Source: Alphaproteobacteria bacterium
GTDB lineage: Bacteria; Pseudomonadota; Alphaproteobacteria; Rhizobiales; JAKIUO01
Direction of reading: 5' to 3'
NCBI GenBank assembly: GCA_024280895.1
Contig: JAJRPI010000034.1
Span: forward strand, 1-41,592
Length of the DNA: 41,592 nucleotides
Within the stretch, counting starts at the first letter, position 1. The number at the start of each line of letters is the position of its first letter. Positions 38,406 through 41,592 of the stretch are shown here, piece by piece. Under the pieces are notes generated by a model that worked only from the letters and a program-made list of their open reading frames with translations, was not told where the DNA came from and did not search any database. A program made the position numbers and the translations under genes.

Positions 38406-39416
38406 TTATTTGGGTTTGGCGGCAACCGGGATGGTTATGCGATGTGCAGCTCCAATACCGCGATCAGAATTGACTCTATAGGATTCATCGCCGCGGATGA
38501 TCTCGACGAGGTTTTCTGAATCTTCAATCTCCTTGCGCATCTGATCAATGGTGCCCGACAGCGCAATTTTCTCGACCGAATAAGCCGTTTCTTGATCCTG
38601 AAGGCGCGATTCCATACCAGCAAGCTGGGCACGCAAGGCATTTATTTCTTGCTGATGGATGCGGTTCTCGGCATCCTGGTCCTCATATCTGGTGATCAGG
38701 TTCTTGACTTCGTTCTGGTGGCTGCTGGTGAGTGTATGCAGCTCTTGCATGTGCTGATCGCCCTTGCTCTCATGGGCTGACAGGTCTTCTTCAAGTTTTT
38801 TGACCTGGGCTTCGCGCAAGTGCAATTGCGTCATACGGGTTTTTAAATCATCTTCAAGCGTGCGCACCTGTTGCTCGTGGGTGGCGGCACGTTTATTTTC
38901 TTCTTCAAAGGTCTGCTGCAATCCCTCGACAATTTTGTCATGGGCGTGCGCACGCTCTTTTTCTGTTGCCAGCATCGAGCGTAACTCTTTGACCTGTAGT
39001 TCATGGGTGTTCGCTGATTTGTGCTCGGTTTTTAATTTGGCTTCAAGTTCCGAAATAACCTTTTCGCGATTGCCAGCATGCTCTTTGAAAGCGGCCAGTT
39101 CGACTTCAAGATGGCTGCTTTTATCGACATGCTCGTCACTGACGCTTTTGCTATTATGCAGTTCTTTTTCAAGTTCGGCGATGCGCAGATCACGCGCATC
39201 AGACAATTGCATTTCAGAATGTAGGTAGTGCTCGAGGACGCCGATGACATTTTCGCGCTTTTTGCTATGTGCGTCATGGTTTTGAAGGTTGCTTTCCAGC
39301 TCTTTGAGATGGTTACCTTCAAAGCCTGAGCTGCGATCCAGGCGTGCCAGTTTTTGCTCAAGAGCCAGCACTTCGCTTTCTTGTATTTTGACGTCGATCA
39401 GATGTTTGCCAATCAC
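38406..39416 (-). CDS. Coiled-coil part of a Clp-N/coiled-coil gene, cut off by an in-frame stop
   Basis: The 336-residue frame begins at GTG 39416, but the same frame is open back to the TAA at 39570-39572, and 51 good codons (LARLKGIVDIDW...) lie between. So this is almost surely the C-terminal half of one gene with 39570-40370. Residues 11-220 are ten tandem 21-residue units, each with hydrophobic residues at positions 6, 9 and 13 (V/L/I, L, L) and usually Glu at 10. Predicted structure is a continuous coiled coil of about 30 nm. Residues 240-300 form more coiled coil, and the tail (YRVNSDRGIGAAHRITIPVA) is not helical. No family recognised. If translated alone it would lack the Clp-N part. 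Confidence 0.65.
   Translation of the reverse strand: MIGKHLIDVKIQESEVLALEQKLARLDRSSGFEGNHLKELESNLQNHDAHSKKRENVIGVLEHYLHSEMQLSDARDLRIAELEKELHNSKSVSDEHVDKSSHLEVELAAFKEHAGNREKVISELEAKLKTEHKSANTHELQVKELRSMLATEKERAHAHDKIVEGLQQTFEEENKRAATHEQQVRTLEDDLKTRMTQLHLREAQVKKLEEDLSAHESKGDQHMQELHTLTSSHQNEVKNLITRYEDQDAENRIHQQEINALRAQLAGMESRLQDQETAYSVEKIALSGTIDQMRKEIEDSENLVEIIRGDESYRVNSDRGIGAAHRITIPVAAKPK
38757..39386 (-). repeat. Ten tandem 63-base units encoding 21-residue coiled-coil repeats
   Basis: Residues 11-220 of the coiled-coil part divide into ten units of exactly 21 residues, for example THELQVKELRSMLATEKERA (one residue short of a unit) and THEQQVRTLEDDLKTRMTQL. There are no insertions or deletions, so unit length is under strong constraint although the sequences differ. 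Three heptads per unit would give an unbroken coiled coil. Confidence 0.85.
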
Positions 39417-39569
39417 CGAGCGATCGCTCGTATTGTTGTGCGGACTTGTCGGAGCGGAACCATTATTGTCGTGGGCCAGGGCGCGCAGGCGGGCCAGTTC
39501 GCTGACCGCTTCATCCGGGGTGATGTCTCCAGCCCAGTCAATATCGACAATGCCTTTGAGGCGGGCCAG

Positions 39570-40370
39570 TTACTGATCCAGATGGCGCACATATAAAAAC
39601 GCCTTGCGACAGCGAGGGCGTTCTGCCAGTTCTTTTTCGGCTCGGGCCAGTAACATTGTGCGTTGGGTCTGCTCTTCACCGTCGAGCACTTCATCAATCA
39701 TGTTGAGGCTCTTGAACAAATGATACCATTCACATTCAAACAGGATTTCTTCGGCATCGCGGCGCCGGGCCATGATCGATTTGATGGAGGCCCGAATAGG
39801 ATCGACATCAAAATTGAGATCTTCGCTTGTTTGATCGATTGGCGTATTGGCCATTGCTTCTTCTCCATTCTGGAGGACTGAGGACCTTTGTTGGGCCGAT
39901 GGGCGAGACCGGGATTTTTTGTGCCGTTTGGGAGTGCGGGCTCGGTCTGGTTTATTTGGCTCTGCGTTCAAAAAGTCAGGGCTGTTTGCTGTCTTAAAAT
40001 CGGCAAGAGCGCGTATGACGTCGCCGCCATCAATGTGATCATCATGTTCATTGTCAGCTTGATCTGAGGCTTTGGCCATCAGCTTTTTCAATTCACGGGC
40101 CGGTTGCAGCTCCGCTATTTCAAGCTTGGCACCGGTGGGCAAACCATCGAGATGATCGGCAACTTTATCGCGCAATTCACCTCGATCAAGGCCGCGTCCG
40201 GTGAGGGCAATCGCCCCTTCAGGATCATCAATAAGCGCAAACAAAAGATGCTCTATTTCCACTGTGCCATGACGGTTCTGTTCGGCGTCCAGCAGGGCTT
40301 TGTTGAAGCTTTCCTTAAGGTTGGGAGACAAGGAAACCCAGCCAAGATATTCAAAAAAAGTAGCAGTCAT
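39570..40370 (-). CDS. Clp-N domain part of a Clp-N/coiled-coil gene, ends at an in-frame TAA
   Basis: The 266-residue frame starts at ATG 40370. Residues about 14-110 resemble the double Clp-N (Clp R) domain of ClpA/ClpB-type proteins (LKESFNKALLDAEQNRHGTV, then EIEHLLFALIDDPEGA, and IDGGDVIRALADFK). There is no AAA+ ATPase: a Lys/Arg-rich linker (about 145-165) and a helical segment with RASIKSIMARRRDAEEIL follow instead. The frame ends in VRHLDQ then TAA, with the same frame continuing directly as coding-like sequence into the coiled-coil part. Clp-N domains bind substrates or adaptors. It is either a pseudogene, a sequencing error, or a gene using readthrough. No good ribosome-binding site is visible. 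Confidence 0.7.
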   Translation of the reverse strand: MTATFFEYLGWVSLSPNLKESFNKALLDAEQNRHGTVEIEHLLFALIDDPEGAIALTGRGLDRGELRDKVADHLDGLPTGAKLEIAELQPARELKKLMAKASDQADNEHDDHIDGGDVIRALADFKTANSPDFLNAEPNKPDRARTPKRHKKSRSRPSAQQRSSVLQNGEEAMANTPIDQTSEDLNFDVDPIRASIKSIMARRRDAEEILFECEWYHLFKSLNMIDEVLDGEEQTQRTMLLARAEKELAERPRCRKAFLYVRHLDQ

Positions 40371-40603: not shown

Positions 40604-41592
40604 TTAAATTGCGCTGCCAAGCCTTGAGATAAACAAGGATGCCCATTGCCATGCGGCTTCTCCATAGCGACCAAGCGCCAGGCTGGAAATCACCAAAAAT
40701 GTGATAAATCCCAGTTTCTTGAGGCCATTGCCATAATCTTTGGCGATGGAAAGTTCAATGATCTTGTCTGGAATATCGGCAATATGAATATTACCGTCAT
40801 CGTCAACCGTACGGGCTGATATGACCAGTTGCAGCCGCGCCTTTCCTGATTTAACCGGTGTCACATTCCAGCGCCAGACGCCGAAATCAGCATCATTGAT
40901 ATGTCGCTGGTTGCGATCAATCCATTGCGTTTGAGGGGACAGGTTTTCGATATGAAAGCCGCTGCCGGGTGCGCGAAGCTGCACGGTCATGGCTTCGGTT
41001 ACCGCAAGTTCGTGAATATGGTTGGAGCTAAGGTCTTCAAATTCACTATTGATCTCATCCAACTGTTCTCTGGTGATACGCACCTCGGCCCGGCTTGGCT
41101 TATTCATCTTCATTTTGCGCGGTACAGCTTCAACGAGGCGACCTTTTTCGAGAACAGAGCCAGTGGCGGACATGCTTTCATTGCTGCCAAGACTGGATGG
41201 TACCGCGCGGCGCCGTTTGGTATGTCGGTTGTGCTGGTTCAGCTGGGCCGTATTTGGTGTGTCCAAGTGAGCCATGCTGGCGGGATCAACCAGCTGTTCC
41301 ACAGAAGCAAGGACGGGAGCTGGTCTAAGAGCAGCCGGTTGTTTTGATGTAGCGGGCGCGGCAGGTGGGCTTTGATTATTGTTGGCTGGTATTGGTGCCA
41401 ATGTGCTTGGTGCCGTTGGCGGGGGCGTGGAGGGAGTGGGGCTTTCCTCGGATTTAAGCGCGACGTCTTTCAATTTTTTCCCCATATTACCAAATAGGGA
41501 GCGCATGCGCGAGGGAGCCTCGCTTGATGCAGCTTCGCTTGATGCAGCTTCGCTTGATGCAGCTTCGCTTGATGCAGCTTCGCTTGATGCAG
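40604..41592 (-). CDS. Beta-rich domain protein with C-terminal membrane anchor, 5' end outside the window
   Basis: At least 329 codons are in frame, open to the right edge, so the start lies beyond 41592; ATG 41506 is internal to the frame. The order is: EAASS pentapeptide repeats (41519 onward), a Pro/Thr/Ala-rich linker (about 40 residues), and a basic segment (RHTKRRRAVPSSLG). Next come a helical piece (RITREQLDEINSEFEDLSSN) and a beta-rich domain (MTVQLRAPGSGFHIENLSPQ, DFGVWRWNVTPVKSGKARLQ). A membrane helix near the C-terminus (FITFLVISSLALG) ends it. The W-x-W-x-V-x-P...G pattern recurs in large bacterial signalling or effector proteins, as I recall, but I cannot name this domain. It lies 233 bases upstream of the Clp-N gene. 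Confidence 0.7.
   Translation of the reverse strand, partial: ASSEAASSEAASSEAASSEAASSEAPSRMRSLFGNMGKKLKDVALKSEESPTPSTPPPTAPSTLAPIPANNNQSPPAAPATSKQPAALRPAPVLASVEQLVDPASMAHLDTPNTAQLNQHNRHTKRRRAVPSSLGSNESMSATGSVLEKGRLVEAVPRKMKMNKPSRAEVRITREQLDEINSEFEDLSSNHIHELAVTEAMTVQLRAPGSGFHIENLSPQTQWIDRNQRHINDADFGVWRWNVTPVKSGKARLQLVISARTVDDDGNIHIADIPDKIIELSIAKDYGNGLKKLGFITFLVISSLALGRYGEAAWQWASLFISRLGSAI
41519..41592. repeat. 15-bp tandem repeat encoding EAASS, continues past the window
   Basis: The unit CGCTTGATGCAGCTT recurs at least 4.7 times to the right edge with no base change; the inner edge (41519-41521) is a degenerate unit. On the minus strand it is read in frame as Glu-Ala-Ala-Ser-Ser. Identity of the units suggests recent copy-number change, so length may vary between strains. 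Confidence 0.9.

Follow-up and report, generated by a model that had tools for sequence, protein, structure and literature searches.

The Clp/Hsp100 ATPases ClpA, ClpB, ClpC and ClpV are known proteins that carry a Clp_N domain, which in them accompanies AAA modules. The Clp_N protein ClpC2 is actinobacterial and is not known to have a long coiled coil. Mycobacterial ClpC2 is described as a partial homologue of ClpC1 and as a molecular sponge that takes up a compound binding ClpC1 (PMC10030653). A gene that is open in related genomes and closed in one is likewise familiar, either as an ordinary recent nonsense allele (a young pseudogene) or as a base error in a consensus sequence; the two look alike, both giving one frame with one premature stop, intact orthologues and no decay after the stop. 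The gene described here lies in an alphaproteobacterial contig of 41,592 nucleotides, the whole of which is called the window below. As an interrupted gene it seems to be of this known kind and is of little consequence. The interruption is ordinary, and the gene pair of which it is part is mildly interesting.

On the minus strand, the frame that runs from ATG 40370 to 38406 comprises 655 codons and ends with a TAA at 38406-38408; its single internal stop is a second TAA in the context CAG TAA CTG (39570-39572). ORF listing by rule divides this frame into two reading frames of the same phase (Table 1), of 266 and 336 amino acids, the second of which begins at GTG 39416, the first standard start beyond the internal stop and 51 codons away from it. 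The coordinates, the shared phase, the sole interruption and its codon context had all been given correctly by an earlier sequence-only reading, which also held that the 51 intervening codons read as protein. They are coding: LARLKGIVDID, ITPDEAVSELARLRAL and similar stretches are common to all three complete orthologues. The 1965 bases of the frame match the window's own genome once, at this place itself.

Table 1. Features of the interrupted gene and its neighbour (window coordinates unless a contig is named)
Feature	Position	Strand	Source
5' part of the gene: Clp_N (residues ~29-74), linker and the greater part of the small helical region; 266 aa product	39570..40370	-	translation, Pfam, orthologue alignment, model
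Premature TAA; Glu sense codon in each of the 5 relatives with sequence here (G012 by eye)	39570..39572	-	orthologue comparison
51 codons without ATG/GTG/TTG, homologous to orthologues; end of helical region and linker	39417..39569	-	alignment
3' part: predicted coiled coil and tail; ORF listed by rule from GTG 39416, a non-start in 3/3 orthologues	38406..39416	-	ORF list, alignment, model
C-terminal half of the neighbouring gene, directly upstream, cut by the contig end	40604..41592	-	orthologue comparison
The same neighbouring gene, a second Clp_N gene, with orthologues	window 40604-41592; L040:9776-11656; L034:3841-5757	window -	Clp_N scan of orthologues
15-bp tandem repeat (~5 copies) where the contig ends within the neighbouring gene	41516..41592	.	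repeat scan

The gene is present in all four other genomes of the genus that were searched, with 71-88% identity in the gene; at this distance none of them is a second genome of the window's species. Three of these genomes, all metagenome-assembled, hold complete and uninterrupted orthologues: L034 in G002 (661 aa), L032 in G001 (660 aa) and L033 in G004 (655 aa), which are 92%, 86% and 82% identical to the window over the first 266 residues. The alignment to relatives that the earlier reading had proposed finds one open frame of 655-661 aa in 3/3 complete orthologues and two separate genes in none, in agreement with its view of a single interrupted gene. The column of the stop is GAA (Glu) in all three. 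In the fourth genome, G003, where the ends of two contigs share the gene, the column reads GAG (Glu). G012 belongs to a different family of the order; there the motif was used to locate the codon by eye, and it is GAA (Glu). Neither of these two frames contains a stop, and Glu is encoded in all five relatives that cover the site (G012 by eye). The window codon is one base away from the GAA of its genus-mates; a one-base change had been foreseen from CAA, AAA or GAA, and GAA is the codon seen in the three complete orthologues, while CAA and AAA are not. GTG 39416 is replaced by GTC, ACG and AAG in these orthologues. Because the orthologues are uninterrupted with Glu at the stop column, GTG 39416 is unconserved and later start codons split no orthologue, a single Clp_N/coiled-coil gene, not two, is well supported by sequence comparison.

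The age of the stop was assessed from substitutions on the window branch and on the sister (L034) branch since their split, polarised with L032. After the stop, the window branch carries 37 silent and 23 replacement substitutions and the sister branch 38 and 28 (Fisher P = 0.72), and relaxed constraint beyond the stop is not seen in these counts. Under a rough model, a branch that was neutral throughout would be expected to show some 127 replacements and some 7 additional stops, and a non-functional share of the branch above roughly 5-10% is unlikely. All six pairwise comparisons give a dN/dS of 0.13-0.19 for the part beyond the stop. An old pseudogene is rejected, as the frame beyond the stop has been as constrained on the window branch as on the sister branch. 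This equal constraint implies that the change is either recent or not real.

The interruption has the look of a recent mutation of the ordinary sort, or of a base error, and not of a new kind of system. We consider it probable that this is one gene with a nonsense codon that arose by a single-base change too recently for the remaining frame to decay. The change would have turned the Glu codon into TAA, so that a gene of one frame gained a nonsense codon, and the product, in this strain or in this consensus, would be an N-terminal piece of 266 residues that keeps the Clp_N domain and the greater part of the small helical region but lacks the coiled coil. The stop column corresponds to residue 267 of L034, which falls in a modelled helix (252-274); the short product would therefore lack the end of the helical region as well as the whole predicted coil. 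The base at 39570-39572 is presumably real in the organism's DNA; the short piece may be made, and the function of the gene may have been lost. One count speaks against a recent mutation, which does not predict it: upstream of the stop, replacements are slightly in excess on the window branch, mostly in the linker (19 silent and 17 replacement substitutions, versus 22 and 6 on the sister branch; P = 0.04). A real allele would suggest that the Clp_N-coiled-coil protein can be lost in at least one lineage. The case also carries a caution for annotation, namely that gene callers list two proteins where relatives have one.

A base error in the assembly consensus, with an intact gene in the organism, is the main competitor; we regard it as possible, though clearly less probable than a recent mutation. 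An error would equally leave the frame after the stop free of decay, and it accords with the sense codon in 5/5 relatives covering the site. In addition, the difference from the orthologues is a G-to-T change on the coding strand, a class that can also arise by oxidative damage in library preparation. Against an error, no other stop was found inside the 19 window genes that were compared with orthologues on syntenic contigs of G001, G002 and G004, the interrupted gene included and some genes matched by one relative only. Of 18 stops listed in comparisons with relatives, by position arithmetic three are the present finding, nine lie upstream of the listed start of a window ORF, and the remaining six fall in two short ORFs listed by rule (103 and 116 aa). 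The assembly looks otherwise clean where examined, though isolated consensus errors may still occur.

For a wider estimate of premature stops, only 48 queries were matched at ≥65% identity, and the estimate therefore rests on an ab initio scan of 365 kb of the window's own genome (the window and the first ≤20 kb of 20 contigs, from a genome of 96 contigs and 3.36 Mb). Among 387 joins of open stretches across a single stop, seven were coding-like on both sides. In the other six, as picked out by the scan, a start codon occurs at most 21 codons past the stop; in this gene it occurs only after 51. Within the 365 kb, no second coding-like join is as far from its next start, which also counts against a consensus error. 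The first version of the scan returned 0/152 and missed the known case as well; its score, minimum length and threshold were then changed, so that the final cut was chosen with knowledge of the case.

A split into two genes, in which the downstream part has a start of its own (GTG 39416 or a later one) and the stop is harmless or even useful, is very unlikely and is rejected despite the conserved start codons found further downstream. These are an in-frame GTG at 39371, which is GTG in 3/4 sequences and in the window is preceded by a run rich in purines (ACAAGAAAGCGAA), and two in-frame ATG codons (alignment columns 387 and 466), which are ATG in 4/4 sequences; the downstream coil is also still constrained. 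All three codons lie within the coiled-coil part, however, and are accompanied by a split gene in none of the orthologues. A start at 39371 or later would lose at least 66 conserved codons, and GTG 39416 is unconserved in the three intact orthologues, none of which has a two-gene arrangement. No run resembling a Shine-Dalgarno sequence was seen by eye in the 20 bases before GTG 39416 or before the column-387 ATG. A promoter for a downstream product was sought and rejected: promoter-like matches in the region are at chance level (one found, 1.9 expected).

A programmed or regulated stop, either read through or switched by phase variation, is likewise very unlikely. Both mechanisms had been raised by the sequence-only reading, and neither is supported. 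The frame is kept after the TAA, which is flanked by two imperfect pairs of inverted repeats (14-15 nt) at window 39353-39399 and 39707-39814, whereas none of 60 shuffled sequences had any. These pairs are absent from 3/3 orthologues. Among genomic tiles of equal size it is not rare to meet one or more pairs of this sort (28/526 outside the window, 16/137 of the overlapping tiles within it), and two such pairs occur in 2/526 tiles outside the window and in 1/137 of the overlapping window tiles. The flanking pairs are uncommon among genomic tiles but not unique. Phase variation is rejected, since there is no tandem repeat tract at the site, inversion at either repeat pair fails to open the frame and leaves three stops in it (the terminal one counted), and the relatives carry sense codons. 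As for recoding or readthrough, TAA is not conserved at the site, where 5/5 relatives (G012 by eye) have Glu and no stop, and it is in ordinary use as a stop, ending 8 of the 17 window genes on the list, the interrupted gene itself among them. We give hardly any credence to the view that the TAA marks a standing regulatory or adaptive allele, off or short, in a Clp_N pair without ATPase, whose short form (the Clp_N head without the coil) would have a role of its own, for example that of a soluble decoy for Clp ligands, next to a possibly membrane-anchored sister.

Whether the stop is a recent nonsense mutation or an error, the intact protein of the relatives resembles ClpA, ClpB, ClpC and ClpV in its Clp_N domain. 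Residues 29-74 match Clp_N (PF02861) in Pfam with 32.3 bits against a cut-off of 20.7, and there is a weak sequence match to solved structures of the ClpA N-domain (E 3.3e-5). Matches to the NCBIfam Clp models, including one to ClpA (E 7.6e-10), are confined to the Clp_N part and fall far under the cut-offs. Unlike the Clp/Hsp100 ATPases with their AAA modules, the full 661-aa orthologue has no AAA family match in Pfam; in their place an AlphaFold model predicts a small helical region at residues 191-297 and, over 317-628, long helices. The model was built from four sequences and has a mean pLDDT of 61 and a pTM of 0.27, with values below 50 in the Clp_N part and moderate ones near the stop. 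PADLOC gave weak matches in coiled-coil stretches of both the downstream part and the full orthologue, and none for the Clp_N part or the neighbouring gene.

On these predictions, the intact protein would be a ligand-binding Clp_N head without an ATPase, held on a long coiled coil. It might tentatively be read as a non-enzymatic Clp_N adaptor, decoy or scaffold. For such a reading mycobacterial ClpC2 (PMC10030653) may serve as a precedent in kind: it too is a Clp_N-type protein and is a partial homologue of a full chaperone, an apparent likeness that covers Clp_N only.

Of 297 genomes of the order, 6 have the small helical region, namely five of the genus and G012. Among 385 genomes drawn from the class it was found in the window's own genome only; as no second match was reported, this draw cannot have held the other genus members or G012. 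The G012 gene, at L088 (G012:C82) 141-2570 on the minus strand, has the same Clp_N, helical and coiled-coil parts and is open over 810 codons.

The gene directly upstream encodes a second Clp_N protein. Its full orthologues in G001, G002 and G004 are of 627-658 aa, and the two that were scanned (G001 and G002) both begin with a Clp_N domain of their own and have no AAA family match. By eye, this protein is rich in proline in the middle and has a C-terminal segment that is hydrophobic. A gene of this kind also lies directly upstream in G003, by eye, whereas no Clp_N-Pro-rich sister gene was seen by eye among the longer ORFs listed for the 11-kb contig of G012. The 15-bp tandem repeat at the contig end may have broken the assembly there. 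A limited literature search found no description of a Clp_N/coiled-coil gene beside such a neighbour. With its Clp_N neighbour, the intact gene forms a small pair, which might belong to an undescribed system, as the sequence-only reading had suggested, and whose products are candidate binders of ClpA or ClpB ligands. Those Clp_N proteins from further families of the order that were inspected by eye, L009 and L011 among them, resemble the neighbour and not the interrupted gene.
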